Positions 1,237-33,553 of a DNA stretch of 33,553 nt are shown here, piece by piece. The translations under genes were made by a program, and so were the position numbers. A model generated the notes under the pieces. The model searched no databases and was not told where the DNA came from. It saw only the letters and a list, made by a program, of their open reading frames with translations. Source of the DNA: Myxococcales bacterium (lineage in GTDB: Bacteria; Myxococcota_A; UBA9042); NCBI GenBank assembly GCA_009692425.1, contig SHZF01000049.1, positions 1 through 33,553 of the forward strand, written 5' to 3'. Every line of letters starts with the position of its first letter. Position 1 is the first letter of the stretch.

Positions 1237-3198
1237 CTACCCGCCCGGCCGCACCGTGCTCGGCCCGCCCTTCGTCGCCTTCAGCATCCAGCGGAAGTTG
1301 TCGATCAACGCCACGCTGTCGAGAATGTGGTCGCCTTCATCGAACACGATGAACCGGATCGAAAACTGTTCTCCCGGCGTGATCGGCACCGTCGTCGTCA
1401 GCCAGCCCGTACCGCCGCCGACGCCGTTCTCGTAGCCCGTGCCCTTGAGCGGCCCGTCGCCCAGCGAGCAGTTGGCCGTGTTGCACGCCTCGAAGAACGC
1501 GGCGTTCACGCTGATGCAGTTGCCCTTGCTGTCGAAGCTCGCGTTGCCCTTGAACAGCTTGCTGTCGACCACGGCGAGGAACTTGTCGTTGAACTGCGAC
1601 CCCACCCACTCCGGATACTCGGCCGACATGAAGTGGAAATCGAACGCGAAGGCGTGCGCATTGGCCGGCGCGTTCAGCACCACCTTCCACTCCGTGTAGT
1701 CCGTCGGGCCGCCAGAATTCGGGCACTGCACGCCGGCGGGGTAGGGCATCGCGTTCTCGAACTTGGTGCCAGGCTGCGGGAACACGTAGCCCGGTTCGCC
1801 CGTCGCCGCCGCCACGCCGCACGCCAAGGCGACGAGGTTCGGGGCCTTGGGCGCCTGGTTGTTGGGGCCGAACGACGTCTTGATGGCGCGCGCTGTGCCC
1901 GCCGCCAGCGTGGGAAACGACGAACTGACCACGTTCGAACACATGCCGATCGCCTTTGGGTAGTCGTTCGGGTCTGCGGAATTCAGGCCAGGCTTGTCGC
2001 ACGCGCCCGAGGGCTCGTCGGTCTGGCCGTTGCAGTCGTTGTCGACGTTGTCGCCGGCCACTTCGAGCGCGCCCTTGTTGACGGTCTTGTTGTAGTCGTT
2101 GCAGTCGTCGCAGCCTTTGAAGCCGTCCTTGTCGCCGTCCTCCTGGGCATCGACGATGCCGGAGCAGTCGTTATCTTTGCCGTTCTTGCAGTTGCGCACG
2201 GCGAGCGGGTTCACGGTGATGTCGAGGTCGTCGCAGTCTTCGGCGCACCCGCTCCAGCCGTCGCCGTCGAAGTCCTTGTCGTCGATGGTGCCGTTGCAGT
2301 CGTCGTCTTTCTGGTTACACAACTCCGGCGCGCCGAAGTAGACCTTGGGGTTCTTGTCGTCGCAGTCCTTGCAGGTCGGGTCGCCGTCCTTGTCGGCGTC
2401 GCCGATGCCGTCGATGACACCGTCGCAGTTGTTGTCCTTGTTGCTCCCGCACACGGCCTTGGCGTCCGGGTTGATGGCCGCGTCTTTGTCGTTGCAGTCC
2501 TCGCACGACAGCCAGCCGTCGCTGTCGCCGTCCTCCTGGGCGTCGAGGATGCCGGAACAGTCGTTGTCTTTCAGGTTGGTGCAGTTGGGCTTGGCACCCG
2601 GGTGAATCTTAGGGTCGGTGTCGTTGCAGTCCTGCTGCGGGCCGGGGCAGGGCGAGAAGGTGTCCTTGTCCTTGTCGAAATCGTCGGTCGCGCCGTTGCA
2701 GTCGTCGTCCTTGCCGTTGCAGGTGTCGAGCAGGCCCGGCTTGGCCTGGGGGTCGGCGTCGTCGCAGTCGCCCTGGGCAGGCGTGACGCCGTCGTTGTCC
2801 TTGTCCTTGTCGCTGCCCGGTCCCGTTGCCATCGGTGGCTTGGCATCGACCGTGGCCCCGTCTGGCGACGTCGACCCGCCTGTCGCACCCGCATCCGCAC
2901 CGCGCTCTGTCGGAGTCGGAGCGCCGGCCGTTCCCTGCGAACCGCCATCGTACAAGGGCAAGTCGCCGTCTGCGCCGCCGTCGAATCCCCAACTCCCACC
3001 ATCGGCCGGGCCGAACGCCGCCGCAACTCCGAGAAACGACGCACCGCCAGCGCCGCCCGCAGCGCCGGCCTGCGCTGAACATGCCGCCGTGGCCAACAGC
3101 GCCGAACATGCCGCGATGGCCGGCAGCAACCCGCCGCGCGTGCACAACACGCCGCCGCAAGACCGGTCGATTTGCTGCCTGTCCACCCTGCCGACCAT
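1237..3198 (-). CDS. Secreted lipoprotein with six MopE-type Cys/Asp repeats and a choice-of-anchor L domain
   Basis: The 653-residue product starts at an ATG with GGAG 6 bases upstream. A long positive N-region and hydrophobic stretch (about 22-38) lead to Cys31 and Cys40, either of which could be a lipobox Cys. A Gly/Ala/Asp/Pro-rich linker runs to about 125. Residues 131-395 hold six degenerate copies of DCxDxxPxxxxGAxxxC then DxDCxGxxD, the putative metal-binding motif of MopE-like proteins; the sixth copy lacks its middle Cys. Residues about 460-645 match the choice-of-anchor L domain (FDFHFMSAEYPEWVGSQFND near the start, LDSVALIDNF near the end). The protein is probably a surface Ca- or Cu-binding protein; the ligand is unknown. 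It lies downstream of the HD-GYP gene on the same strand, 152 bases away. Confidence 0.85.
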   Translation of the reverse strand: MVGRVDRQQIDRSCGGVLCTRGGLLPAIAACSALLATAACSAQAGAAGGAGGASFLGVAAAFGPADGGSWGFDGGADGDLPLYDGGSQGTAGAPTPTERGADAGATGGSTSPDGATVDAKPPMATGPGSDKDKDNDGVTPAQGDCDDADPQAKPGLLDTCNGKDDDCNGATDDFDKDKDTFSPCPGPQQDCNDTDPKIHPGAKPNCTNLKDNDCSGILDAQEDGDSDGWLSCEDCNDKDAAINPDAKAVCGSNKDNNCDGVIDGIGDADKDGDPTCKDCDDKNPKVYFGAPELCNQKDDDCNGTIDDKDFDGDGWSGCAEDCDDLDITVNPLAVRNCKNGKDNDCSGIVDAQEDGDKDGFKGCDDCNDYNKTVNKGALEVAGDNVDNDCNGQTDEPSGACDKPGLNSADPNDYPKAIGMCSNVVSSSFPTLAAGTARAIKTSFGPNNQAPKAPNLVALACGVAAATGEPGYVFPQPGTKFENAMPYPAGVQCPNSGGPTDYTEWKVVLNAPANAHAFAFDFHFMSAEYPEWVGSQFNDKFLAVVDSKLFKGNASFDSKGNCISVNAAFFEACNTANCSLGDGPLKGTGYENGVGGGTGWLTTTVPITPGEQFSIRFIVFDEGDHILDSVALIDNFRWMLKATKGGPSTVRPGG

Positions 3199-7854: not shown

Positions 7855-7877
<23 letters not shown>
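7266..7877 (+). CDS. purN: Phosphoribosylglycinamide formyltransferase (GAR transformylase)
   Basis: This enzyme transfers the formyl group of 10-formyltetrahydrofolate to GAR in the third step of purine synthesis. The 203-residue product has the PurN start VVLASGDGSNLQALL and the catalytic trio: Asn111 and His113 in LNLHPALPGAF, and Asp153 in PEIDAGPVV. Starts in frame are TTG 7233, GTG 7254 and GTG 7266. The last gives MARLVVLASG, which matches the family's usual N-terminus, so it is chosen; the others add residues encoded by the direct repeat. It follows the HEAT-repeat gene and probably shares its transcript. Its 3' end overlaps that of the convergent phosphatase-fold gene by 23 bp. Confidence 0.92.
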
Positions 7878-9993
<2,116 letters not shown>

Positions 9994-10019
9994 AGACGGC
10001 AGCGGCGACGACCCGGGAA

Positions 10020-11195
10020 TCAGAGCAGTTCGAACGCCGCGCGCTCGACATCGTGGATGCGGCGCATGGTGCCCGCAAGATCTTCGAGGCGCGACCGCAT
10101 CGTGCGCCGGTCCCATTGTGCGGGTTGGAGGTGCGCCTGGCGGATGCGTTCGTGCAGCATGACCAGTTCTGGCAGGCCGTGGGTGCCGCGGTCGCGCCGA
10201 ATCTTCAGGGTGCGCGCGATGGCCGTGCGCAGATCACGCAGGGCCGGGTCGGTGTCGGGCAACAGCAGGTCGCCAAAGTGCCGCCACAGTGCGGCCGCTT
10301 CGCGAAACCGGTCCGCCGCCTTCGCCCAATGCGCGCCGCGAGCCGACACGACGGCACCGGCCTCGGTCAGGAACTCCGCGTAGAGTTCGCGCAGGCCCGC
10401 ACCCTCGCTGTTGCCGGCCAATTGCAGGTACGTGCTGCGGAACGCCTGCACCGCATCTGCAGAACGCACGAGTTGATACATCCAGCCCGACGCATCCTTC
10501 GCATCGGCCAGCGCGTCCGCCCAGCGTCGCCACGCCGAGACACCATAGACGGCGTGCTGAGAGCGTTCGCGACACGCGGCGACCGCATCTTGCACCGCCT
10601 CGGCCAGGTCGAGCGGCCGCGACGGCTGCCGCACGATCACGATCCGGTGCCGCGACGCCGCGATGGCGGCCCGTGCCGCCGCGAGTTCGCCCACCGGCAC
10701 CTGCCACCCGTGCGAGCAGCGGTCATCGACGTGCGCCACGTCGTCGTCGAGGCCATAGACCGCGACCCCGTACACGCACGCCTTGGCCAGCCGCGCGCCG
10801 GGTGGGGTGTGCCGGAACGTCGCTTCGTCTGCGAGGCACCACGCCGGCATACCTTCGCCGAGCACGCTCGCCAGTTGCCCCAGCGCGAGTTTCGGGCTGC
10901 CGGTCTCGCGCACTTCGAGCGGCAGCAACAACCGGGCACACACGGCTTCGGCCAGTTCGCCGCGGTATTTGTGCCAGTCGTGGCGAAACCCGAGCGTTAC
11001 CATGCGCTCGTCGTCCGGCCCGACGAGGTCCATCGACCAGCCGGCGCTCACACCTCCGGCCAGGCCAATCACCCACGCCTCCGACGGCGGACGGGCCTGG
11101 GGACCCAACTTGACGCCAACGTATTCGAGGATGTTGCGGAGACCCGCCGTCTCCCACTGCGCGCCCGGTCTGAGTGGATAGCCGTCAAGCTTCAT
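10020..11195 (-). CDS. BtrH N-terminal / DUF4872-like protein
   Basis: The 391-residue product has no signal peptide. Its first half resembles the BtrH_N fold, a papain/C39-like acyltransferase first known from butirosin synthesis: GLRNILEYVG near the start, SEAWVIGLAGGVSAGW, ALGQLASVLGEGMPAW, and a VYGLDDDVAHVDD strand. The second half is helical, like the DUF4872 partner region. In BtrH relatives the first motif reads roughly HCxTTALRN; here the matching residues are QWETAGLRN, so the Cys and His appear to be replaced by Trp and Gln. The protein may therefore be non-catalytic or use a different chemistry. It precedes the phosphatase-fold gene by 26 bases. The family call is from recalled motifs and moderately sure. 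Confidence 0.6.
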   Translation of the reverse strand: MKLDGYPLRPGAQWETAGLRNILEYVGVKLGPQARPPSEAWVIGLAGGVSAGWSMDLVGPDDERMVTLGFRHDWHKYRGELAEAVCARLLLPLEVRETGSPKLALGQLASVLGEGMPAWCLADEATFRHTPPGARLAKACVYGVAVYGLDDDVAHVDDRCSHGWQVPVGELAAARAAIAASRHRIVIVRQPSRPLDLAEAVQDAVAACRERSQHAVYGVSAWRRWADALADAKDASGWMYQLVRSADAVQAFRSTYLQLAGNSEGAGLRELYAEFLTEAGAVVSARGAHWAKAADRFREAAALWRHFGDLLLPDTDPALRDLRTAIARTLKIRRDRGTHGLPELVMLHERIRQAHLQPAQWDRRTMRSRLEDLAGTMRRIHDVERAAFELL

Positions 11196-12391: not shown

Positions 12392-14257
12392 CTACGCCAG
12401 AGCGGCCGGCGCCGCCGCAACGCCGTCTGGCACCGGGTCGGTCGCGAACACCTGGTGCTCCACCAGCCGCCGATAGGTGCCGTCGTGGTCCATCAGGCTG
12501 TCGTGGGTGCCCTGGTCGACGAGCCGGCCGCGCTCCAGAACCGCGATCTGGTGGGCGTCGCGTACGGTCGACAGTCGGTGAGCGATCACGATCGTCGTGC
12601 GCCCCACCATCAGCCGGGCGAGCGCCTGCTGCACGAGCGCTTCGCTTTCGGCGTCCAGACTGCTCGTCGCCTCGTCAAGAATCAGCACGCGCGGATTGGC
12701 CAGCACCGCCCGCGCGATCGCAATGCGCTGGCGTTGGCCCCCGGAGAGCTGCACGCCGCGTTCGCCGATGAGGGTCGCCCAGCCGTCGGGGAAGCGGTCG
12801 ATGAATTCGATCGCGTGGGCATCGCGGGCCGCCGAGACGATGTCAGCCTCGGCCGCATCGGGGCGGGCGAACGCAATGTTGTCGCGAATCGTACCGGAGA
12901 AAAGCACGGGTTCCTGGCTGACGATCGCGATGGCCCGGCGCAGTTCGGCGACCTTGAGCCTGCGGACGTCGACACCGTCGAAGGTGACGCGGCCGCCTTG
13001 GACGTCCTGAAACCGCTGCAGCAGCGCCGTCAGCGTCGTCTTTCCGGACCCCGATGCGCCCACGAGCGCGACGGACCGCCCCGCCTCGACCCGCAACGAG
13101 ATCCCACGCAGCACCGGATGGTCGGAGCGCGTCGGGTAGGCGAATTCGACGTCCTCGAACGCGACGACGGCGCCTTGCAGGTTGCGGCCGTCCACGTTGC
13201 GCGTGACGGGTAGCGGCACGGCATCGGGTGCATCGGCAATGTCGGGCTGCGTGCGCAGGATGTCGAAGATGCGCTCGGTCGCCCCCGCCGCGCGCTGGAT
13301 CGTGCCGCCCAGGCTGGCGAGCGCGCCGACGGACGCCGCGACCATTGCGGTGTAGAGCAGGAACGCGGTGAGGTCGCCGCCCGACAATTCCTTGCTGACG
13401 ACCGCGCCGCCGCCCACCCACACGACTGCAGCGATCGCCAAAGACACAGCGAGCGTCGTACTTGCAAAAAACGTCGCCCGCCAACGCACGAGTTGCAGCG
13501 ACTGATCGAACGCCGCGCCGATGTTGGCACGGTAGGTCTGCGCCTCGCGCTGCTCGCGCACGAAGGCCTGCACGGTCTGCATGGCCGAGACGACCTCCTC
13601 GACGCGCGTCGACGTCACCGCGTGGCGGTCCTGGATGGCGCGACTCAGCCTGCGCACGCGACGGCCAAAAAACACCACGCCGACAACGACGGGCGGCACG
13701 ATCGCCAGCATGAGCAACGTCAGCTTCGGGTTCTCGACGAACAGCAGCACGATGCCGCCAAAGAGCGTAAGCGAGTGGCGCAGCGCCAGCGACAGTTCGG
13801 AGCCGACAAGGTGATCCACGACCGTCACGTCGGACGACAGGCGCGACAGGATTTCGCCGGTGTGGCGCACGTGGAACCACGACGGCGGCAGCGTCAACAA
13901 CTTGTCGAACACCTGGACCCGCAGGTCGGCGACCACGCGCTCGCCGAGCCACGACATCAGGAAGTGGCGGATCCAGATGAAGACGGCCTGCACGAGGAAA
14001 ACCGCGATGAGGAAGAGCACCAGCCAGTTGAGCCGATCGAGCGTCGGGGCCGCCAAGCCGATGTCGACGGCCTGACGCGCGGCTTGCGGGTAGACGAGGC
14101 CGAGGCCCGAGGAGACAAAAAGTGCGATGGTGGCAAGCCAGAACCGCCAACGGTAGGGCTTGACGAGAGCCAGCAAGGACCAAAGCGGGGCGAGATCGGT
14201 GCGGCCGAGCGCGTCGGTTGGCTGGGGCGGGCCGGAGGACGGGGCAAAACGGGCCAT
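12392..14257 (-). CDS. ABC-type exporter half-transporter (MsbA/lipid-multidrug class)
   Basis: This single 621-residue chain has a six-helix membrane domain (about 25-320) and a C-terminal nucleotide-binding domain. All ATPase motifs are intact: Walker A GASGSGKTT, Q-loop VSQEP, signature LSGGQRQR, Walker B VLILDEATS and the switch His in AHRLS. It should act as a homodimer exporting a lipid, peptide or small molecule. No peptidase C39 domain is present. It is the last gene of the agmatine/methyltransferase operon, 34 bases after the PqqD-like methyltransferase gene, which suggests that it exports that pathway's product; this is inference. ATG 14257 is chosen over the TTG and GTG just upstream. 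Confidence 0.88.
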   Translation of the reverse strand: MARFAPSSGPPQPTDALGRTDLAPLWSLLALVKPYRWRFWLATIALFVSSGLGLVYPQAARQAVDIGLAAPTLDRLNWLVLFLIAVFLVQAVFIWIRHFLMSWLGERVVADLRVQVFDKLLTLPPSWFHVRHTGEILSRLSSDVTVVDHLVGSELSLALRHSLTLFGGIVLLFVENPKLTLLMLAIVPPVVVGVVFFGRRVRRLSRAIQDRHAVTSTRVEEVVSAMQTVQAFVREQREAQTYRANIGAAFDQSLQLVRWRATFFASTTLAVSLAIAAVVWVGGGAVVSKELSGGDLTAFLLYTAMVAASVGALASLGGTIQRAAGATERIFDILRTQPDIADAPDAVPLPVTRNVDGRNLQGAVVAFEDVEFAYPTRSDHPVLRGISLRVEAGRSVALVGASGSGKTTLTALLQRFQDVQGGRVTFDGVDVRRLKVAELRRAIAIVSQEPVLFSGTIRDNIAFARPDAAEADIVSAARDAHAIEFIDRFPDGWATLIGERGVQLSGGQRQRIAIARAVLANPRVLILDEATSSLDAESEALVQQALARLMVGRTTIVIAHRLSTVRDAHQIAVLERGRLVDQGTHDSLMDHDGTYRRLVEHQVFATDPVPDGVAAAPAALA

Positions 14258-14291
14258 CGGCACCAAGGCCGGCGCGTGCGGGCCGGGCGAG

Positions 14292-16016
14292 TCAAGGTAG
14301 GACGCCCGCGCGACTTGTCGAGTCCGCCGCAGGATCCGGCCGCGTCACCACCAGCGCAAGGAACTCAGGCGGGCGCAGCCCCATGACCCGCTCGCCGGCG
14401 GGTGTCCAGTGCAGGCCCTCGATCGCAGCGACATCGATCCGGTCACGACAGCGGGCGCGGAACTCGGGCGGCGTCATCGCACGTTTCGGCAGGGCGATGC
14501 CATGGGCCGCCAACAGGGCGCGCAGGTTGCGGAACTGGGTGCGCGTCGTCGCCAGCACCGGCACCGCGCCGTCGAGGCCCACCAGCGCCGCCACCGGTTC
14601 GAGGTGCGCGCCCAGGCCGAGGCAGCGGGCGACTTGGATCAGGTGGCCAAAGTGCACCGACCATTCGGCGTGGTCGAGGTGCGTCGATTCGATGGGAGTC
14701 TGTCGCTCGGCGCCGAACTCCGTCAGCACCGCTACGCCGCCCGGCCGCAGCACGCGCGCCAACTGTTCGATGAGCCGCGCGGCACCTACCTGGATCGCCA
14801 CGGGATTGGCGGCACCGGCAAGGTCCAGGCCGTAACGCCGGACGTCGGCCAACGCATCGGCATCGCCGGCCAGCAACTCGGGATCGATCAGGCCGAGGCG
14901 CAGGTCGGCGATCACTTCGTTGCAGACCAGCAGGTCGACGGACGCGTCTGGCAACGCGAGCGCTTCGGCGTGCCCCAATGTTGAGCGAAAGCGCGGCCCC
15001 CACGGTGTCAGGCGCCGGGCTTGGGCGGCGTGGAGCACCGGGCTCAGTTCGATCACCGTGCACGCAGCGTCCGGTTCGAGGTGCGGATGCCGGTCGCGCA
15101 GCGCCCGCACCCACCCCTCGGCAAACCGGCCCGTCCCGCCGCCCACCTCGACCGACGTCGCGTGTCCTGGACGCAACCAACCGCGCGCGACGGCGGCGTC
15201 GACGAGGGCCGCGGCCCACGTGCGGTGGCGCAGCGCGGGATGCGGGTCGGCGAACAGATGCGACATCGTCGTCTCCAGTTCCTCGAACTGGAGTTCGGCG
15301 TCCGCGATGGAAAAGCTGTGGTAGTCGGTCAGGTCGCGCGCGCCACCTTGCGGCGTGGCAGCCGCATCGGCGGGTTGGTCGAACGGCGCGTACGGCATCG
15401 TGCTCGTGGCGTAGGCGGGCAGGGTCCGCAGCGCCGAATGCGGCCGCAGCAGCAGGCGGGCGAGCTGATGGTCGGGGTGGGTCCAACGCGCCAAGGTGGC
15501 CAACACGTGGCGACGTGCCGTGGTACGGTCCATGGGGGTCTGGACCGCAACGAGTTCGGCCAGTTCGCGCGCCGAGCGTTCGCCATCGAGGTTTCGCCAC
15601 AGCGTGAGATCGGCGCCGGCGAGCTCCTCGGCGCGCGGCTGCGCCCACGGTTCGGGCCCGAAGCCGCGGCTGACGTATGCGACTGCCCGGTCCGGTTCGA
15701 CGTGGTGCACGACGATCCACGGCCCGCGGATCGGGTAGCCATCCAGCACGGCCGCCCGCTCGTCGGTGGCGGGTGCGACCAGGATGCGGTGCGCTGCGAA
15801 CGTCTGCGCAAACTGGGCCAGCGTCGTCATGGGGCTTGCCAGGCCGCAACGCTGCGCTGCCTGCTGTGGCGTGGCGGGGGGCGCGAACGCATCGACGAAC
15901 GCCTTGAGGTCGAGCGACATCTCTAGCAGGAAGCCGTACAGGTCATGCCAGGCATAGACCGCATCGCCGCGGCGGAACCACGACACGAAGCGCGATCGTT
16001 GCAGCCGGTCACCCAC
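14292..16016 (-). CDS. Two PqqD-like winged-helix modules fused to a MidA-like SAM methyltransferase
   Basis: The product is 574 residues from GTG 16016 (Shine-Dalgarno AGGAAAGG, about 9 bases upstream). Residues about 8-85 and 97-190 each look like a PqqD/RRE-type fold: beta strands, then a helix-turn-helix (EMSLDLKAFVDAF; DLTLWRNLDGERSARELAEL), ending in a hydrophobic helix (FAAHRILVAP; HQLARLLLRP). Residues 235-530 form a class I methyltransferase with VEVGGGTGRF (motif I, about 290), VIELSPVLHAAQ and NEVIADL, the last two recalling MidA/NDUFAF7 protein-arginine methyltransferases. PqqD-like modules bind leader peptides in RiPP pathways, so a peptide or protein substrate is plausible. It lies 18 bases after agmatine deiminase. 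The methyltransferase call is firm, the PqqD-like part moderate. Confidence 0.68.
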   Translation of the reverse strand: MGDRLQRSRFVSWFRRGDAVYAWHDLYGFLLEMSLDLKAFVDAFAPPATPQQAAQRCGLASPMTTLAQFAQTFAAHRILVAPATDERAAVLDGYPIRGPWIVVHHVEPDRAVAYVSRGFGPEPWAQPRAEELAGADLTLWRNLDGERSARELAELVAVQTPMDRTTARRHVLATLARWTHPDHQLARLLLRPHSALRTLPAYATSTMPYAPFDQPADAAATPQGGARDLTDYHSFSIADAELQFEELETTMSHLFADPHPALRHRTWAAALVDAAVARGWLRPGHATSVEVGGGTGRFAEGWVRALRDRHPHLEPDAACTVIELSPVLHAAQARRLTPWGPRFRSTLGHAEALALPDASVDLLVCNEVIADLRLGLIDPELLAGDADALADVRRYGLDLAGAANPVAIQVGAARLIEQLARVLRPGGVAVLTEFGAERQTPIESTHLDHAEWSVHFGHLIQVARCLGLGAHLEPVAALVGLDGAVPVLATTRTQFRNLRALLAAHGIALPKRAMTPPEFRARCRDRIDVAAIEGLHWTPAGERVMGLRPPEFLALVVTRPDPAADSTSRAGVLP

Positions 16017-16034: not shown

Positions 16035-17126
16035 TCAATACTGCAACGTGCCAATCGGAATCTGTTGGGTGACGCAGTGGATGCCGCCATTCCACGTCAC
16101 CAGCGCCCGGGCGTCGAGGCCGACGATGGTGCGAGTGGGAAAAAGACCCTGCAGCACCTCGATCGCACGCGCATCGGCCGGCTGCAGGAACACGGGGACA
16201 AGAACGCGGTCATTCGCGATGTAGAAGTTTGCATAGCTCGCCGGAACCTGTTCACCGTGAAAATAAATCGCATCAGGCACCGGCAACCGCGCCAGCTCGA
16301 AAACCTGGCCGGCCGCGCCGCGCATCTCGCCGAGGCGCGCGAGGTTGGCCTGCATTGCCGCGTAGTCCGCGTGGCCCGGTGGCGGGTCCACGACGGCGAT
16401 GGTGTGCGGAGCGACGAAGCGGGCGAGGTCGTCGATGTGGCCGTCGGTGTCGTCGCCCGCGAGGCCGGCGCCCAGCCAGTGGACACGCTCGGCGCCCAGG
16501 CACGCGCGCAACACGGCGTCGAGGCCGGTGCGGTCGAGGTGCGGATTGCGCGTCGGCGTCAGCAGCACGGCTTCGGTCGTCAACAGGTCGCCGGCGCCGT
16601 TGACGTCGATCGAGCCCCCTTCGAGCACCACACGCGGCCGCACGCGCGGCAACTGCCAGGCCCGGTTCAACTCGCGCGGCACGGCATCGTCCAGGGCGCT
16701 CGCGAACTTGCCGCCCCACGCGTTGAATTCGAAGTCGAGCAGCGTGGCGCGGCCGGCGGGGTCCAGCGCGAGGATCGGCCCATGGTCGCGCGCCCAGACG
16801 TCGTCGCTGTCGATGCAGTGCCAGTGCAGGCGACCCAGATCGGCACCGGCGCGCCCGACAGCGGCGGTCGCGCGCGCCTGCCACGACGCGTTCGGCACAT
16901 TGATGTGGACCTCCTCGCACGCGCTCAGTTCGGCGGCCAGCCGGGCAAACAACGCCTCGACCTCGGCGTGGACACCGCGCCAAAGTTCTACCCGGTGGGG
17001 CCAGGTGAGCAGGGTGCCCTGGTGCGGCTCCCATTCCGCCGGCATCCGCAACGTGCGAGGCGGCCGCACAGGCGCGGGGTCGAGGGTCACGTCCGGCACC
17101 GCCCGCTCGCAAGGCACCCCGGTCAT
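16035..17126 (-). CDS. aguA: Agmatine deiminase
   Basis: This enzyme hydrolyses agmatine to N-carbamoylputrescine and ammonia. The 363-residue product has the guanidine-modifying (pentein) fold signatures: PAEWEPHQGTLLTWPH near the start, DVWARDHGPIL, LEGGSIDVNGAGDLLTTE, GDDTDGHIDDLARF, and the nucleophile Cys351 in GGIHCVTQQIP. All catalytic residues of the family are present. The frame is open to 17207, but ATG 17126 overlaps the stop of the amidase gene as ATGA and is the right start. Together with the upstream amidase it makes the two-step route from agmatine to putrescine. Confidence 0.95.
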   Translation of the reverse strand: MTGVPCERAVPDVTLDPAPVRPPRTLRMPAEWEPHQGTLLTWPHRVELWRGVHAEVEALFARLAAELSACEEVHINVPNASWQARATAAVGRAGADLGRLHWHCIDSDDVWARDHGPILALDPAGRATLLDFEFNAWGGKFASALDDAVPRELNRAWQLPRVRPRVVLEGGSIDVNGAGDLLTTEAVLLTPTRNPHLDRTGLDAVLRACLGAERVHWLGAGLAGDDTDGHIDDLARFVAPHTIAVVDPPPGHADYAAMQANLARLGEMRGAAGQVFELARLPVPDAIYFHGEQVPASYANFYIANDRVLVPVFLQPADARAIEVLQGLFPTRTIVGLDARALVTWNGGIHCVTQQIPIGTLQY

Positions 17127-18019
17127 GGCGCGCCGCCGGGGGCCGTCCGCCAGCGGCGCAACAGGTCGCCGTACAGGTCGATGCGGCGGTCGCGAAAAAA
17201 CGGCCACAGGTTGCGGACTTCACTCACCCGCGCCAAATCGACGTCGGCGATGGCGGTCGCCGGGGCGGAGCCCGCTTCCGCGATGACTTCACCCTGCGGC
17301 CCGCACGCAAACGACAGCCCCCAGAAGTCGATCTGGCCCTCCCGGCCGGCGCGGTTGACGGCTGCAACGAAGCAACCATTCGCGATGGCATGGCCGCGCT
17401 GCACGGTGCGCCAGGCGTCTTGCTGGCGCGCACGCTCGGCGGCGTCTTCGGCGGGCAGTGAGCCGATGGCGGTCGGGTAGACGATGAGTTCCGCGCCGCC
17501 CAGGGCAGCCAGGCGGGCAGCTTCGGGAAACCATTGGTCCCAGCACACCAGCACGGCGATGCGCCCCGCCCGCGTCGCGAACACGGGGAAACCGGAGTCG
17601 CCCGGCGCGAACCAGAACTTTTCCTCGTAGCCGGCATCGCATGGGATGTGCGCCTTGCGGTAGCAACCCGCCACGCGGCCGTCGGCGTCGATGACTATGG
17701 CGGTGTTGTAGTGCAGGCCGGGCGCCGCGCGCTCGAACACGGAGCCGACGACAACGAGCCCACAGGTACGGGCGACGTGCTGGAGCGCCACGGTGGTCGG
17801 TCCGGCGGGAACGGCTTCGGCGCGGTCGAATGCGGCGGGGTGCATGTCTTGGCAGAAATACGGCCCGCGAAACAGTTCCGGGAGCACGGCCACCGTGGCA
17901 CCGGCGGCAGCGGCGCCGCGCAAGGCTTCGAGCGCGAGCGGCAAGTGGTCGGTCTCGGCCGGATTCGCGGGCAACTGGCACAGGGCGAGGCGCAAGGGCG
18001 GCGCGGCAGGCAGGGTCAT
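17123..18019 (-). CDS. aguB: N-carbamoylputrescine amidase
   Basis: This nitrilase-superfamily enzyme releases putrescine, CO2 and ammonia from N-carbamoylputrescine. The 298-residue product carries the Glu-Lys-Cys triad at Glu48 (LPELF), Lys122 (YRKAHIP) and Cys159 (LVCWDQWFPE). The segment HIPCDAGYEEKFWFAPGD is typical of AguB rather than of other nitrilases. ATG 18019 overlaps the stop of the preceding methyltransferase (ATGA), and its own stop overlaps the aguA start in the same way, so the three genes are translationally coupled. Confidence 0.95.
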   Translation of the reverse strand: MTLPAAPPLRLALCQLPANPAETDHLPLALEALRGAAAAGATVAVLPELFRGPYFCQDMHPAAFDRAEAVPAGPTTVALQHVARTCGLVVVGSVFERAAPGLHYNTAIVIDADGRVAGCYRKAHIPCDAGYEEKFWFAPGDSGFPVFATRAGRIAVLVCWDQWFPEAARLAALGGAELIVYPTAIGSLPAEDAAERARQQDAWRTVQRGHAIANGCFVAAVNRAGREGQIDFWGLSFACGPQGEVIAEAGSAPATAIADVDLARVSEVRNLWPFFRDRRIDLYGDLLRRWRTAPGGAP

Positions 18020-18747
18020 GGGCGCACGGCCTTCATCGTGTAAAGCGTGTACGGGATGCGGTAGCCGTCATGGCGCAGCGTCGTGCGCACGTCGGCAAAG
18101 CGCCGCTGCACGAGTTCCAGGTACTGCGCCGGGGTCCGCACGTGGCGGCCGCGATCGTGCCCGATGAGCCAGCGCGCGAGCCGCGACTGCTCCGGCACCC
18201 AGGCGTTGTCATAGGTGAGCAGGAAGCCACCGGGCCGCAACTGGGCCCACGCTGCATCGACGAGGTGGCTCGCCTCGGCGTCGTCGAGGTGGTGCAGCAT
18301 CGCGTTGGCCATCACCACGTCGAAGCCGCCCGCGCGCAGCGGCGTGTCGCCCACGCGTGCCACCTCAAAGGTCCCGCGATCGCCCAAGTCCTGGCGCGCG
18401 AACGCAATGTAGCGCGCGTTCATGTCGAACCCGTGATAGGCCACGCCCTCGGGCAAGAAGCGCACCATCGTGCCGGGCCCGCAACCGATGTCGAGGATGG
18501 ACCAGCCGGTCTGCGGCTCCAGGAGCGTGTCGACGTACCAGCGCCGGAACGTGTCGGCGCCGATGAGGCGCTGGAATGCGTCGTACGCCCGGGGCCGCGT
18601 GAGCACCGCGCGCAAGCCGGAGTCGTCGTGGTCGGTGGGCAAGAGGGGCGTCCTGCTGGCGCGAAGAGCGCGGGTGAGGCGGGTCCGGCACACCCCAGTC
18701 GGGTCCAGGTCCACGAGGCCGCGCACGTCATACACCGTCGAGCCCAC
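18016..18747 (-). CDS. Class I SAM-dependent methyltransferase
   Basis: The 243-residue soluble protein has motif I ILDIGCGPGTMVRF (about 84-97), an acidic motif II (FDMNARYIAFA) and the post-motif NAMLHHLDDAEASHLV, the set seen in small-molecule methyltransferases of the Methyltransf_11/25 type. The substrate is unknown. It is first in the operon with the two agmatine enzymes, with an ATGA overlap to aguB, so a polyamine or guanidine substrate is a reasonable guess but only that. It starts at GTG 18747. The opposite-strand polysaccharide operon begins 107 bases away. Confidence 0.82.
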   Translation of the reverse strand: MGSTVYDVRGLVDLDPTGVCRTRLTRALRASRTPLLPTDHDDSGLRAVLTRPRAYDAFQRLIGADTFRRWYVDTLLEPQTGWSILDIGCGPGTMVRFLPEGVAYHGFDMNARYIAFARQDLGDRGTFEVARVGDTPLRAGGFDVVMANAMLHHLDDAEASHLVDAAWAQLRPGGFLLTYDNAWVPEQSRLARWLIGHDRGRHVRTPAQYLELVQRRFADVRTTLRHDGYRIPYTLYTMKAVRP

Positions 18748-25152: not shown

Positions 25153-28100
25153 CTACCACACCCGCACCCGCAGCTTCGCCCCCGCCGCACCGCCCACCAC
25201 CACGAGGGCCGCCTTGCTGTCGAGTCGCAGCGTGCCGGCGCCCACCACATGCCACGCGCCGTCGGAATCTCGCGTTGCGGGCTTGCCGTTCCACTGTGCG
25301 CTCGCCGCCGGACCCGCTGACCACCCATTCGGCTGCCAGGTGTACGTCCGCTTGGGCGCCGCTTCGGCCCACGTCGAGCCCTTCACGTCGCCTCCGCCAA
25401 ACAACCACACTTCGCGGTCCTCGCCCGCCCACGCCAGTCCCTTGATGCCCTTGTCGGCCTGGGCCTCGAATAGCGTCTCGACCCCTTCGGGCAGCAGCAC
25501 CAGCACGGAGCCGGCCGGCACGAGCGCGGGCACTTCGTCCATCTCGGCAGCCACTTCAACGGGTACGGCAGCGCCGATCACCTCGGTCCACGCCTGCGGT
25601 CCCGTGCCAGGCAGGCGGGCGTAGCGCCCCACCGGCAACCACACCGAGCGCTTGGTCGTCTTCGGCGTCAGCACGGGAGCCACCACGATGCGGTCGCCGA
25701 GCAGGTACTGGTCCGTGCGCGTCCACGCCGGCCCGAAATCCGGCCAGCGCACGGACAACGGACCGAACAAGGGAGCGCCGCTCTCGCTGGCCCGCCGCGC
25801 CAGCCCCGCGAAATAGGGATAGAGCCGCGTATGCAGGGCACCGTAGCGACGGAAGTGACCGATCGACTTGGCGTCCTTCTCCCAGTTCCAGTTCTCGCTG
25901 ATGCTGCGGCCGTGGTGCGTCCGCATCACCGGGCTGAGCGCGCCCAACTCGACCCAGCGGAACCACAATTCTTCGGTCGAGGCGTCCGTGAAGACGCTGA
26001 TGTAGCCGGCGATGTCGGGACCGAAATACGGAAAGCCCGTCAGCCCCAGTCCGATGCCCATCGGTACCACGCTCGGCATGCCGTCGCCCTCGCTCCAGTC
26101 AGTCTGCTGGTCCCCCGGCCAGAACACGTGGATGTGAGGCTGCGAGCCGAGCCAGGCGGCGCGCATGAAGAAAATCCGCTCGATGCCATCTTTTTTCTGT
26201 TGCTCGTCGAGTAGTTCCCGATTCAGCCGGGCGTAGTCGGCAGGGTAGGGGTTGTGTGCGTGCAGGCACGACCCGGAAGCGACCACGCAGTCCGTCGGCA
26301 GCCACTCGCAGAAGTCGGCCATCCAGCCGTCGGCACCCTGCTCGAGGCCCTTGCGCATCACGCCCTTGGCCCACGCGACCGCGGTCGGGCTCGACACGTC
26401 GAGCAACGTCGTCGGCTTGAGAGTGGTGCCCGCGAAGGTCGCGGTCTTGCCGTCGGCTGTCTTCATCGTGTGGCCGCCGGCGACAGCGTCGGCATGGACG
26501 TCGGCGGAGTTGACGAGGAACGTGTTGTTGTACGTCAGGAACTTGAAGCCGAGCCCATGCAGGTCGGCCGCCACCAGTTCGAAGTCGGGGTAGACCTTGC
26601 GGTCGACGTTCCAGTCCTCCTCCAGGCCGAAATCCGCCGCTGCGCCGTTGTTGCCGCGCCAGTCTTCGGTCCAGATCGCCGACGATGGCACGTGTTCGGC
26701 CCGCAGCTTTTCGGCCACCCGCCGCACGTTGGCGCTGCCGAACACCGCGTCATGCCACGGCGCGAACGCAAACGCCGGTGGCACGGGCGGGCGACCGGTG
26801 CGTGCGGTCAGGCGGCGCACGACATCGAGCGGCTGCGGACCCTCGAAAATGTGGAGCGTAAGCCCCGCGCCTTCGTTTTCGATGCGCACGGTGTCGGCGC
26901 GCTCGCTGCACAGCGCAAACGTGGCGCGGTCGGGTGTATCGAGCAGCACGCCGTAGCCCCTGCTCGATACGAAGATGGGCATCGGTGAGTGCGTCGAATG
27001 GCGCCGGCCGACGATGGCCCAGTCGTCGCGCTGCGCGTCGGTCGGGTGCTTCGAGATGCCATCCTCTTCGACCCACAGCGGCACGGTCTGGCCGCGGTGG
27101 TCGACGTCCCAACTCTGGCCGCCGAGGCCCTGGAAGTGCTCGTCGGACCGACACGCAAACCCGATCGATGTCCGGTTCCACGTCGCCGCGCGCGGCAGGA
27201 TGCGCATCTGTAGTTCACCTGCCGCTGGTGAACGCATTTCGATGTCGGCCAACGGCTGCCCGGCGCGGTCGAGGCCGACGGCAGCCAGGACGCCGCCGGC
27301 AACCCGCACCGACCCGAAGCCTGCCACGTCTGTCCACGGAAGATCGTCTTTCACGTCGCGCTTGTACGCACCGAACGACATCTTCCAGTTCACATCCTGC
27401 CGCCGGAACGCCAGGGTCGCCCGCGCGGCGTCGGTCGGCGTCGCGTCGTGCGGGGCAGCCACGCCGTCGAAAAGCAGGTCTCCGTTCGACCGCATCACCT
27501 GCAGGCGGGCGGGGTTCTCGGTGACGCGTACGTCAAGGCCACCGAGGCGAAAGACGTTCTTGGATGCAGCAGGTTCCGTCACCCCGCAGCCGAGCAGCGC
27601 GAGTCCCACCGCAACCTCTGCCAGCGCCCGCCGCCGCCGCGCCAGCCAGACACCGAAGCCCAGCAGCACGAGAACGGCAGCGGCGGGGCTCGGCCGGGCG
27701 CCCGCACTGCATGACGACGCCGCGCCATCGACGGGTTCGACCGCAACCGTCGCGCGATCCCACACGTCGGGCGCGCCCAACGACTTGCCGGCGTCGAGCC
27801 CGACCACGGCCTTGGGCACGGACGGCTTCCACGTGCCGAGCACTTCGCCGACTGGCTTCACGATAGCCTTGTGCGCCTGGAGCAGGTCGAGCACCTGCTG
27901 GAACTTCTGCGGCGTCACGTACGTTGGCGCAGTGTGCGTGTCGTTGCTGGAAGCGCGGTGGAACAGCAGGAGCAGCCACCCGCTTGGCGCCTCCTCGGCC
28001 TCGACGAGGTACTCCTCGACCGTTGCCAGCGGCATGTCGTACAACACGTCGATGCAACGCAGTTCGCCGGTCTCGTACGGCCACTGCTCGATGCCCGGCT

Positions 28101-29064
28101 TGACCGTGCGAAAAGAACTGTACGTGGTCAGCGCCTTCTGCCGGACCGCCGCGGTGTAGTGGCCGTACGGTGGCGCGAACCCGCTGACCGCCGCGCCGAT
28201 CGCCTCCAACTGCGCGCGCGACTGCACAAGCGCCGTCTCGACGTCGGCCGGGCCTTGCTGCGTCAGGTCGTCGTGCGTCACGGTGTGTGAACCAATCTCA
28301 TGGCCGCCGTCGATCAGCGCCTCGATCTGGGAGTTTGTCATGTAATCCGAGGAGAATCCTGGCCGGTTCATGAATCCGGAGATGATGTAGTGCGTGCCAC
28401 GCCAGCCCATCGCCTGGAGTTTCGGCACCAGCAGGCCATACGCGCTGACCCAGCCGTCGTCGAACGTGACGCTGACGAGCGCGGGGTGGCTGCCAAAGCG
28501 CCCGCTGCCCCCTTCCGTCTTGCGGGCGGCGGCATACAGGTCCGTCTCCAGCCAACCGACCTGGCTGATCACGTGCAGCAGGCGCAGGGTCGTCACCCAC
28601 GGCGGCAGCGCGACGTCCCCTTTTGCGTATGTCCACGTGGCGGCGGCCGGCAGGTTCGCCACTGCGTAGTACTCCTTTTCGACGCCGGCGCCCTGCACGA
28701 CCAGCATCAGCGTGCTCGGCACACTCGCGCGGTACCAGTCCGATACGCGGTACTTCGTCGTGCCGGGCTCCACCGCGAACGGCGCCGACCACCACTTCGC
28801 GTCGCCGTCGGGCGCCGACACCTTCACTTCGACACGCAGGGCCTTCAGCCCGTCTTTGGCCGGTGTCACCCAGCCGAAAGAGGCGATGACGCCGCCCCAG
28901 GAATCCGTCGTCCATTGAGCTGGTTGGGTCGAATTGAGCGCGTCCGCCACTTCGACCGACGGATTGCCGACATCAGCCCACGCGTCGGGCAGCCCGCCCG
29001 CAGCGGCGAAACCCGCGGCGACGCCCGCCAGCGCCCAGGCAGCCCATGGAGTCGCATCGTTCAC
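25153..29064 (-). CDS. Fusion of polysaccharide deacetylase (CE4) with GH31 glycosidase, joined by MYXO-CTERM and lipobox signals
   Basis: The product is 1303 residues from GTG 29064, which overlaps the previous stop (GTGA). A hydrophobic N-terminus (about 5-30) is a possible signal peptide. A beta-sandwich-like region (about 35-180) precedes a CE4 deacetylase (about 190-400: TFDDG near 200, SHTVTH, FAPPYGHY). Cys452 then begins a MYXO-CTERM-like tail: a hydrophobic helix ending in RRRR. Without a stop, a second hydrophobic stretch follows, ending LALLGC with Cys493 in a perfect lipobox. The rest is a GH31 glycosidase with nucleophile Asp917 (GWMADFCEW) and acid/base Asp985 (FWPGDQQTDW). Motifs such as DIAGY recall the sulfoquinovosidase YihQ, but the recalled sulfonate-binding Arg is not evident. 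It may be a single protein with a hairpin anchor or a precursor cut in two. The enzyme families are sure; the substrate is unknown. Confidence 0.85.
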   Translation of the reverse strand: MNDATPWAAWALAGVAAGFAAAGGLPDAWADVGNPSVEVADALNSTQPAQWTTDSWGGVIASFGWVTPAKDGLKALRVEVKVSAPDGDAKWWSAPFAVEPGTTKYRVSDWYRASVPSTLMLVVQGAGVEKEYYAVANLPAAATWTYAKGDVALPPWVTTLRLLHVISQVGWLETDLYAAARKTEGGSGRFGSHPALVSVTFDDGWVSAYGLLVPKLQAMGWRGTHYIISGFMNRPGFSSDYMTNSQIEALIDGGHEIGSHTVTHDDLTQQGPADVETALVQSRAQLEAIGAAVSGFAPPYGHYTAAVRQKALTTYSSFRTVKPGIEQWPYETGELRCIDVLYDMPLATVEEYLVEAEEAPSGWLLLLFHRASSNDTHTAPTYVTPQKFQQVLDLLQAHKAIVKPVGEVLGTWKPSVPKAVVGLDAGKSLGAPDVWDRATVAVEPVDGAASSCSAGARPSPAAAVLVLLGFGVWLARRRRALAEVAVGLALLGCGVTEPAASKNVFRLGGLDVRVTENPARLQVMRSNGDLLFDGVAAPHDATPTDAARATLAFRRQDVNWKMSFGAYKRDVKDDLPWTDVAGFGSVRVAGGVLAAVGLDRAGQPLADIEMRSPAAGELQMRILPRAATWNRTSIGFACRSDEHFQGLGGQSWDVDHRGQTVPLWVEEDGISKHPTDAQRDDWAIVGRRHSTHSPMPIFVSSRGYGVLLDTPDRATFALCSERADTVRIENEGAGLTLHIFEGPQPLDVVRRLTARTGRPPVPPAFAFAPWHDAVFGSANVRRVAEKLRAEHVPSSAIWTEDWRGNNGAAADFGLEEDWNVDRKVYPDFELVAADLHGLGFKFLTYNNTFLVNSADVHADAVAGGHTMKTADGKTATFAGTTLKPTTLLDVSSPTAVAWAKGVMRKGLEQGADGWMADFCEWLPTDCVVASGSCLHAHNPYPADYARLNRELLDEQQKKDGIERIFFMRAAWLGSQPHIHVFWPGDQQTDWSEGDGMPSVVPMGIGLGLTGFPYFGPDIAGYISVFTDASTEELWFRWVELGALSPVMRTHHGRSISENWNWEKDAKSIGHFRRYGALHTRLYPYFAGLARRASESGAPLFGPLSVRWPDFGPAWTRTDQYLLGDRIVVAPVLTPKTTKRSVWLPVGRYARLPGTGPQAWTEVIGAAVPVEVAAEMDEVPALVPAGSVLVLLPEGVETLFEAQADKGIKGLAWAGEDREVWLFGGGDVKGSTWAEAAPKRTYTWQPNGWSAGPAASAQWNGKPATRDSDGAWHVVGAGTLRLDSKAALVVVGGAAGAKLRVRVW
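27586..27711 (-). other. Back-to-back MYXO-CTERM sorting signal and lipoprotein signal in one frame
   Basis: The Cys codon at 27711-27709 (SSCSAG) starts a tail with a hydrophobic helix and four Arg; 41 residues on, the Cys codon at 27588-27586 ends the lipobox LLGC. The four Arg can serve both as the cytoplasmic end of the first helix and as the positive N-region of the second. No stop codon lies between them. Confidence 0.7.
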
Positions 29065-31310
29065 GGTGCAGCCTCGGCAAAAAGCGACCGCAGCGTCGCA
29101 TACAGCGGCTTCTTGCGCTCCGTCGGCACCACCTTGTCCCACGTCGGCCACGCGTACAGCGGCAGCTTCGCGCCATCGACCGTGCCGCTCGCAAATGCCC
29201 CACGCGGCAGCACGTCGACGATTTGCAGGGTCCCATCGGCCGCACGCCGCGCCGCGACCGCAAACACCTGGACGCCCGAGGTCTTGCGCGCATCGAACGC
29301 GCCTTGCGTGGCCGGATCGTCGAACAGCACATGGCGCGACGACGGGTCCGTGACCCACAGCGCGTGCCACGGGATGCGCACCTCGATGAAGCCGCGCCCC
29401 GGCAGCACGTGCGCCAGCGAGTCCTTGGTCTGGTCGCCCGCCCGCAGCCTGCCGCGCGCGAAGAACTTGCGCTTTGGATTGATGAGACCCGAGGCCTGGT
29501 ACTGCGCGTTGTTGTTCACCATCTGCTCGGTCAGCTGAAACACGCCGCTCGAATTGGCCAGCGGCACACCGCCTTTTTGTGAGTCGCCGTTCAGGCGCGG
29601 CATCGGATCGTACGTGGCGTCGGTCAGCACCACGAAGCCCGTCTTGGGGCGATCGAGCACCACGAGGCTCTCGAAGCCAACCCCCTGAGCCGCCAGGCCG
29701 AGCAGGTTGACCTTGGCGTTGCCGGTGGCGCCATCGACCGTGCTGACGGCGAGCGCCCACACCGTCGCGTCGGGGTCGGGCACGTTTGTCGTGGCCAGGT
29801 CGATCTTCGCGAACAGGAACGCAGGGTCCGCAGCCAGCGTCAGCCCCGTCAGCGTGCGGTCGGCGTCCTTGCCATCGCCGGCGGGCTGGAGCGGTGGTGC
29901 GGATTGACTGCCAACGCGAAAATCGGTCGCCTTCCAGTCGTCGCCACGCCCATCGACGAACTTCGACCAGCCGGGGATCGGGTAATAGGCTACGATGCCA
30001 AAGGATTCCTCCGGACTGCACACATCGTGCCAGAAGGGTCCGCGATCGGCGGGCAACATCGTCGGCGTCGTCACCCACGTGCGCTTGAACCACTCGTCGA
30101 TCCACTCGAACACGACGGCTCCCGCGGCTCCCGACTGGCGGATCGCCCGGTACAGATCGACGGTGACCGCGGCCTGCTCCGCTTCGTTGTAGCCGCCATG
30201 GTCCCACGCGGTCTCGTTGACGTGGGCGACGCCGAACGACGACGGCACGCCGAATTCGGCGACCAGCAACGGAATGTCCTTGTGCGCCGCTTTCAGGTCC
30301 TTGAGGTAGCCGAGGTAGCTGTTCGGCTTGCCGGCGCTATCCTTCGTGTTGCGGTACTGCGGGTCATAGATGATGAATTCCGGGTTGAACGGGTAGACAT
30401 GGTAGCTGACGAACACGCCGCGGTCGAAGGGTGCCACGATCTCGAATTTGCCGAGATCCTCATCGACGATGTCCTGGCCGAAGTTCGGTGTCTCGGTCGG
30501 GTGGTGGATCGGGTCGAGCGCCGGCCAGTTCGAGTAGCCGACCATGTGCATCGCACCCCAGCGGTCCCACTCGTAGGCGACGGTGTGGTCGAGCACGCGG
30601 GCCGCCCAGCCTTCCATCGGCTTGCCTTGCTTCATGCGGATGAAGCGTCCGGCATAGGTCGTGTACTCGGCCCACTTCGCGTCGCCGGCCTTGGCCAGGG
30701 CGCCATCCATCTCGTGGCCGGGCAGCCACGCCATCAGCCACGGTGAAGCGTCTGCCGTGTAGATGCCATACGCCTTGCCGAAGCGTGGCGGAATGTCGGC
30801 CTTGCCGTGCACCGCATCGACCACCAGCCGAGTCTCGGCATCGAGTTGTGGCGTGGCGTCAGTGATGTAGTCGCCGTGCTCGATCTCGTCGGGCCACACG
30901 CCCTGGATGAGGTAGACCGGCGTGCCGGCGTGGGCGCGGTTCCAGTCGCGAAAGGTCTGGTAGAACAGCGGCATGTGCAGCGTGTAGGTGCGAATCGCGG
31001 TGGCGTTCATGGCCGCGATGTCTGTCAGCCAGCGCCAATAATCGTCGCGCGTGGCCGCGTGCAGTTCGCCGGGGAAGTAGCCGGGCTTGGCGATGGCAAG
31101 GTTCACGGCGTTGACGAAAAACGGCCGCCAGCCCTTGCCGTCGTGGCGGTCGATCTCGAAGGTGTCGCGATGCGCCCGAAATGCCGCGGGTTCAGGGCGA
31201 TCGACCGGTACATCTCCGCACGCCGAAACTCCAAGCAGGGCGAGGCCGGCCAGCGCCCAGCCGGCCAGCGCGAGGCCGGCCCGCACGCAGCGCCCGTGGG
31301 GTCGTTTCAA
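29061..31310 (-). CDS. Glycoside-hydrolase (clan GH-A-like TIM barrel) lipoprotein with CBM9-like domain
   Basis: The 749-residue product is a lipoprotein: MKRPHGR, a hydrophobic stretch, and lipobox VSAC with Cys31. A TIM-barrel glycosidase-like domain follows (about 45-420), with FFVNAVNLAIAKPGYFPGE, NATAIRTYTLH, candidate acid/base Glu200 (PGHEMDG) and candidate nucleophile Glu352 (LLVAEFGVPSS), then FEWIDEW. The C-terminal part (about 470-735, DWKATDFRVG and FLFAKIDL) looks like a CBM9/DOMON-type binding domain. The frame opens at 31388, but TTG 31310 has GGAG 7 bases upstream and gives a clean signal peptide. It probably acts on extracellular glycans with the CE4/GH31 protein, whose start overlaps its stop. 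The exact GH family is not determined. Confidence 0.75.
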   Translation of the reverse strand: MKRPHGRCVRAGLALAGWALAGLALLGVSACGDVPVDRPEPAAFRAHRDTFEIDRHDGKGWRPFFVNAVNLAIAKPGYFPGELHAATRDDYWRWLTDIAAMNATAIRTYTLHMPLFYQTFRDWNRAHAGTPVYLIQGVWPDEIEHGDYITDATPQLDAETRLVVDAVHGKADIPPRFGKAYGIYTADASPWLMAWLPGHEMDGALAKAGDAKWAEYTTYAGRFIRMKQGKPMEGWAARVLDHTVAYEWDRWGAMHMVGYSNWPALDPIHHPTETPNFGQDIVDEDLGKFEIVAPFDRGVFVSYHVYPFNPEFIIYDPQYRNTKDSAGKPNSYLGYLKDLKAAHKDIPLLVAEFGVPSSFGVAHVNETAWDHGGYNEAEQAAVTVDLYRAIRQSGAAGAVVFEWIDEWFKRTWVTTPTMLPADRGPFWHDVCSPEESFGIVAYYPIPGWSKFVDGRGDDWKATDFRVGSQSAPPLQPAGDGKDADRTLTGLTLAADPAFLFAKIDLATTNVPDPDATVWALAVSTVDGATGNAKVNLLGLAAQGVGFESLVVLDRPKTGFVVLTDATYDPMPRLNGDSQKGGVPLANSSGVFQLTEQMVNNNAQYQASGLINPKRKFFARGRLRAGDQTKDSLAHVLPGRGFIEVRIPWHALWVTDPSSRHVLFDDPATQGAFDARKTSGVQVFAVAARRAADGTLQIVDVLPRGAFASGTVDGAKLPLYAWPTWDKVVPTERKKPLYATLRSLFAEAAP

Positions 31311-32973: not shown

Positions 32974-33019
32974 GGCGGAACTCCCGGAACGCAAATGAAA
33001 ACCAGACAGACGAGCGGAC

Positions 33020-33553
33020 TCAGGCTTCGGGCTGCGGCGGGTCGGTGCCGGACTTCGCTGGGGTCGAAGCCGACGGACCCGGTGGGGGGGAAGCTCCCAA
33101 ATAAGCCGAAGATCCTTGGTAGCGCTCGATGACCTCGACGAGCAGGATGCGGCCCGACGCCAGTAGGGGGATCGCAATCAGCACGCCGATCAAGCCGAAC
33201 AATTCGCCCATCGCGACGATGCCGAGCAGCACGACGAGCGGCTTGAGCCCCACCTTCGTGCCGATGACGCGCGGCGTGATGATCAGCACATCGACGACGT
33301 AGAAGGCGCCGAACAGGAACACAACACCGAGCACCTGCCATAGCGTATGACCGGTCAGCATCGACAGCAAGGCGCAAAGCAGGGCGCCTGCGATGACGCC
33401 GACATACGGCACCAGGTAGGCCACGCCGGCGACCGGGCCGACGACGACTGCAAATGGCACGTCGAGCAGCACGAGGCCGACCGTGTAGACGGTGGTGGCG
33501 GTGACCAGCAGCACGAGTTCGCCGCGCAGGAAGCCGGCCAGCACCTCGTCGAT
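33020..33553 (-). CDS. AI-2E family permease (PerM/TqsA-like), 5' end outside the window
   Basis: This is the C-terminal 177 residues of a multi-helix membrane protein; the frame runs on past the window edge. GFLRGELVLLVTATTVYTVGLVLLDVPFA, the PYVGVIAGALL segment and LITPRVIGTKVGLKPLVVLLGIVAMGELFGLIG with GVLIAIPL are hallmarks of the AI-2E transporter superfamily, which includes quorum-signal exporters and Na+/H+ antiporters. A short Pro/Ser-rich cytoplasmic tail ends the protein. It is upstream of and collinear with the cNMP-kinase gene (46 bases between). The substrate cannot be told. Confidence 0.88.
   Translation of the reverse strand: MDEVLAGFLRGELVLLVTATTVYTVGLVLLDVPFAVVVGPVAGVAYLVPYVGVIAGALLCALLSMLTGHTLWQVLGVVFLFGAFYVVDVLIITPRVIGTKVGLKPLVVLLGIVAMGELFGLIGVLIAIPLLASGRILLVEVIERYQGSSAYLGASPPPGPSASTPAKSGTDPPQPEA

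Follow-up and report, generated by a model that had tools for sequence, protein, structure and literature searches.

The gene and its locus

The window, i.e. the whole 33,553-nt stretch of DNA that was analysed, carries an open reading frame of 574 aa at 14292-16016 on the minus strand, with a GTG start and zero internal stops. Homologues occur in 14 of the 22 genomes of the window organism's GTDB family, so the frame is a gene, and the original observation on it is confirmed as real. We refer to it as the RRE-MidA-like gene. It is the fourth in a run of five tightly packed minus-strand genes, which are listed below in operon order and are spaced by -4, -85, 18 and 25 nt.

18016..18747, minus strand: generic class I methyltransferase, operon neighbour
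17123..18019, minus strand: N-carbamoylputrescine amidase (AguB), operon neighbour
16035..17207, minus strand: agmatine deiminase (AguA), operon neighbour; same order solely in locus L020
14292..16016, minus strand: whole gene, tandem RRE-fold domains plus MidA-like methyltransferase (ORF, Pfam, AlphaFold, homologues)
12392..14266, minus strand: ABC exporter (MsbA-related), operon neighbour directly downstream of the RRE-MidA-like gene

A search for promoters and terminators gave nothing above chance. Elsewhere in the window, 10020-11195 (minus strand) encodes a BtrH_N plus DUF4872 protein, an enzyme of the peptide- or acyl-transfer type; this gene adjoins a sulfatase gene (7855-10116), with overlap of the start and end regions. 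A single 1684-aa frame at 25153-30207 (minus) contains polysaccharide deacetylase and GH31 glycosidase domains. The gene at 31315-33177 (minus) encodes a cyclic-nucleotide-binding domain and then a protein kinase domain, and that at 1237-3198 (minus) a protein with six metal-binding repeats of the MopE type. On contig 7 of the window's genome (G000) lies a further PqqD-like frame (L159), 260 aa including the upstream part, which scored 26.4 bits.

Distribution of the family

The family was found in 58 of 282 sampled Myxococcota genomes (E < 1e-20), mostly as a single copy per genome and across many families of the phylum. Named records that contain it are mostly Myxococcales metagenome assemblies. 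Among sampled Planctomycetota genomes, 8 of 246 carry it (E 1e-15).

The family profile matched from the first 17 positions in 49 of 59 loci, which indicates that the RRE-fold and methyltransferase halves occur together. At the remaining 10 loci, L087 among them, the match starts at position 85 or later and the first domain is therefore diverged or missing.

An HD_4 domain of the SpoT/MESH1 type is fused in front in 6 of the 9 planctomycete copies examined, and these six copies form one clade (support 1.0). By eye, the HD...ED pattern, which is the catalytic pattern of SpoT/MESH1 HD_4 domains, is kept in five of the six but not in L025. The planctomycete genome G348 contains two divergent family copies (L150 and L152), and no HD_4 domain was evident by eye in either.

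Alignment A1 held 13 sequences, without the fragment L015 and the duplicate locus L016. Loci L031-L034 were left out of alignments A5 and A6; A7 was made without L031-L034 and the truncated L029. Conservation was counted over 64 distinct aligned family sequences (66 minus the duplicates L068 and L072).

Two winged helices at the N-terminus

Two PqqD-like winged helices had been predicted in front of the methyltransferase. Both were borne out by the predicted model and by matches to RRE structures:

15747..16007, minus strand: first PqqD/RRE-like winged helix, residues 4-90 (AlphaFold model; invariant G28; conserved YHDLxGxLLEMSxDL)
15441..15740, minus strand: second PqqD/RRE-like winged helix, residues 93-192 (LWRxIDGERT...LA, WTHSxRQ; weak Pfam PqqD; structure matches)

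The full-length AlphaFold model, built with 19 sequences, had a pLDDT of 92.1 and a pTM of 0.88; residues 1-204 modelled alone gave 94.9 and 0.87, respectively. In the predicted model both N-terminal halves have the same topology, three strands and then three helices. The first comprises strands 11-16, 19-24 and 30-33 and helices 35-42, 50-57 and 63-75, the second strands 102-107, 110-115 and 128-133 and helices 134-141, 149-159 and 164-179. G28 is invariant in 64 of 64 sequences.

Among the matches listed by VIA-align, the best structures for the N-terminal model were mostly peptide-binding RRE domains. TigE matched with Z 13.5 over 91 residues. MccB and MibB, both with Z 10.3, matched the first domain over residues 3-87 and 3-84, and TbiB1 (93-191, Z 9.7) and lasso B1 (93-188, Z 9.3) matched the second; NisB, PbtF and PqqD had Z scores of 8.7, 7.8 and 7.8. 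Winged helices that are not RREs were matched too, namely the Rv2067c C-terminal domain (Z 10.6), MINA53 (Z 8.2) and NO66 (Z 6.2-6.4). Since the RRE fold resembles winged helices with other roles, the fold alone is no proof of peptide binding. A passage of PMC7470986 notes that helix-turn-helix domains resembling RREs are known to be miscalled as RREs, and one of PMC12710340 describes the RRE fold in fusions outside classical RiPP enzymes. Both cautions apply to the RRE-MidA-like protein.

Likeness to PqqD in sequence is confined to the second domain, and the first shares the fold. Against Pfam PqqD (PF05402) the second domain scored 19.7 bits (E 0.0011), short of the gathering score of 23.4; the PqqD score in the genome search was 22.7 bits. 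PqqD entries were its top three matches among PDB sequences (E 0.014), and the first domain had no meaningful match there, PqqD included. Profile-profile comparison of the two N-terminal halves found no sequence likeness (hhalign probability 0.1%, E 0.41). The idea that residues 8-85 and 97-190 repeat one pattern thus holds for the fold and fails for the sequence. Compared with PqqD/RRE (PF05402), the window protein is predicted to have the three-strand, three-helix winged helix twice, the second copy being weakly recognisable by sequence, but it stays below the Pfam cut-off, lacks RiPP context and is fused to a MidA-like methyltransferase.

Two such modules in one chain had been expected to be unusual. 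The arrangement is uncommon but not without precedent: ThcOx, the cyanobactin oxidase, carries two RREs, and two ThcOx entries match separate stretches of the window protein (3-96 and 111-210) as tandem RRE-fold domains. In ThcOx, however, the RREs are fused to an oxidase and belong to a RiPP pathway.

A MidA-like methyltransferase

The C-terminal half contains the following features:

14331..15341, minus strand: MidA-like class I methyltransferase, residues 226-562 (PF02636, VIA-align, hhalign)
15231..15329, minus strand: family signature, residues 230-262, IxDAExQFExxETTLSHLFxxPHPAL plus a few residues ahead (alignment, conservation)
15126..15158, minus strand: SAM-binding motif I region (EVGGGTGRFA), residues 287-297 (alignment A2)
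15021..15050, minus strand: MidA-group motif ELSPxLxxxQ (here ELSPVLHAAQ), residues 323-332 (sequence, alignments)
14904..14921, minus strand: MidA-group motif NE (NEVIAD), residues 366-371, with NEV at 366-368 (sequence, alignments)

The signature and the SAM motif come from alignment A2, made without L035 (29% identity, 174-481 only). All 64 distinct aligned sequences have E290 and E367, and Q332 is kept in 55 of them.

Pfam Methyltransf_28 (MidA, PF02636) matched with 33.5 bits, above its gathering score of 23.3, and several relatives scored 61-68 bits. The profile check against COG1565 that had been proposed for this half was positive, COG1565 being the top PDB sequence match (E 2.8e-9). 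With the full model, ranks 1-5 of VIA-align were MidA/COG1565 chains (Z 19.4-21.2, 253-269 residues aligned), and generic methyltransferases ranked next (Z 17.6-19.1, about 180-240 residues aligned). Comparison with four canonical MidA-type sequences by hhalign gave 97.4% (E 1.3e-11, 106 columns); two generic methyltransferases encoded in the window served as control and reached 83.2% (E 8.7e-6), so the MidA signal is in part one that class I methyltransferases share. Together with the ELSPxLxxxQ and NE motifs, these matches uphold the assignment to the MidA group.

When compared by eye with the four MidA-type sequences, the protein lacks both GYY, near the start of canonical MidA, and D[IVL]TxxVDF, near its end. 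It is therefore related to MidA without being its orthologue, and the substrate of MidA cannot be transferred to it. Like MidA/NDUFAF7 (COG1565, PF02636) it has the methyltransferase core and the two motifs, with MidA chains as best structure matches; unlike it, the window protein has two RRE-fold domains in front, and its family is not tied to complex I. A second PF02636-scoring group in Myxococcota (L121 796-2538, L123 964-2970) has C-terminal repeats that by eye resemble the TPR type.

Rickettsia PKMT1/PKMT2 and mycobacterial Rv2067c, which are protein lysine methyltransferases, also join a methyltransferase to winged-helix-like domain(s). However, these domains come after the methyltransferase, and the target is lysine. 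PKMT2 matched the N-terminal model weakly in VIA-align (Z 7.5, rmsd 11.7, 155 residues aligned over 1-188).

Neighbouring genes

Flanks were taken for 40 regions, about 6 kb per side where the contig allowed. Among 54 loci in which the gene was picked up (60 examined), no conserved neighbour gene was found beyond single clades, and the largest common neighbour cluster covered 6 loci. Of 20 loci compared, just the window and L020 have AguB-AguA beside the family gene, and the pair was dropped as functional partners.

A Rieske ferredoxin lies next to the gene in 4 of 59 loci (L023, L024, L028 and L030); a fifth, L092, is a weak match. The four loci form one clade (support 0.98), which points to a single event, and the ferredoxin was rejected as a general partner. 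In these four loci the gene is followed by the Rieske ferredoxin and, slightly further, by a HEAT-repeat-type protein. A response-regulator-type gene is found in three of the four; in L023 it is a sigma-54 activator.

Proposed function

What was observed here is the gene, its family, the predicted folds, the SAM-binding motif and the wide conservation. As the most likely reading we favour, with some reserve, a methyltransferase of the MidA-like superfamily that uses SAM, acts on a protein or peptide and docks this substrate with its twin RRE-fold domains. The two winged helices would form a built-in platform that holds a protein, and the MidA-like domain would then methylate the docked protein. 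A docking role for the N-terminal part, with a peptide or protein as its partner, is plausible; as in PqqD/RRE proteins, the peptide would lie along strand 3 and helix 3. We infer the binding of a peptide stretch, the protein nature of the substrate and the residue that is methylated. For this residue the first candidate would be arginine, solely by analogy with MidA/NDUFAF7: PMC3829151 reports that NDUFAF7 dimethylates Arg-85 of NDUFS2. The enzyme would be stand-alone, with its target protein encoded elsewhere in the genome, and unconserved neighbours are what would be expected of such an enzyme.

We weighed four other explanations. A small-molecule methyltransferase, with the winged helices structural, dimer-forming or regulatory, is doubtful. 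Generic natural-product methyltransferases come close behind MidA in VIA-align (Z 17.6-19.1), the window operon contains agmatine/putrescine enzymes, and L025 and L027 carry HD_4, a domain typical of nucleotide hydrolases; however, the structural alignment with MidA covers more residues and scores higher than those with generic enzymes, and AguA/AguB adjoin the gene in just the two loci named above. The maturation of a RiPP, with the precursor peptide bound via the RREs, is improbable. The RRE-fold domains, the PqqD-like sequence of the second and the ABC exporter directly downstream in the window would suit it, but the operon gaps leave no room for a precursor gene, the 54 loci have no conserved neighbour, and a gene mostly present once per genome over many families is unlike a typical variable RiPP cluster. 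By gaps and neighbour survey there is no RiPP context, and the reading as a RiPP cluster was rejected.

That the protein replaces MidA/NDUFAF7 in function and methylates NuoD for complex I assembly is quite improbable. The MidA-like domain found by VIA-align and hhalign fits this, and so does the window genome, where NuoD is present and zero further PF02636 matches were found. However, with E 1e-40 as the threshold, 18 of the 58 genomes with the gene have no NuoD match, and nor do 54 of the 224 without it, so that the family shows no association with complex I in this comparison, and the link to complex I that had been considered was not borne out. For several of these 18 genomes, completeness reaches 90% or more. 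Furthermore, G009, G130 and G150 already have a MidA-type protein beside the RRE-MidA-like gene. The missing NuoD matches, the lack of conserved neighbours and the lack of room for a precursor leave both the complex I role of MidA and RiPP maturation unsupported. Least probable is a nucleic-acid methyltransferase or regulator whose winged helices bind DNA or RNA. RREs resemble helix-turn-helix regulators, according to a passage of PMC7470986, and the second recognition helix of the window copy has a charge of +3. Across the family, however, the median net charge is -6 for the first domain and +0.5 for the second, with a recognition-helix median of -1, and such neutral or acidic winged helices speak against DNA binding; moreover, RREs and not DNA-binding proteins are on top among the VIA-align matches listed.

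Significance

Both features have precedents: ThcOx has tandem RREs, and the Rickettsia PKMTs and Rv2067c are protein methyltransferases with winged helices. The combination of tandem RRE-fold domains with a MidA-like methyltransferase was not found in literature searches. A bolder extension of the docking methyltransferase, which we consider speculative and rather unlikely, is that a conserved bacterial protein methyltransferase took up RRE-fold domains as a pair of docking modules, in a role other than RiPP biosynthesis, and that the HD_4 fusion of one planctomycete clade ties protein methylation to nucleotide second messengers.

Should the RRE-fold domains indeed be the docking site of a cellular protein, RREs would serve substrate recognition in general and not just in RiPP pathways, and genome-mining tools would have to allow for non-RiPP RREs. 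The HD_4 fusion would then suggest that methylation answers to nucleotide signals, and Myxococcota would possess a hitherto unstudied protein methyltransferase, widespread in the phylum, whose target could be put to the test.
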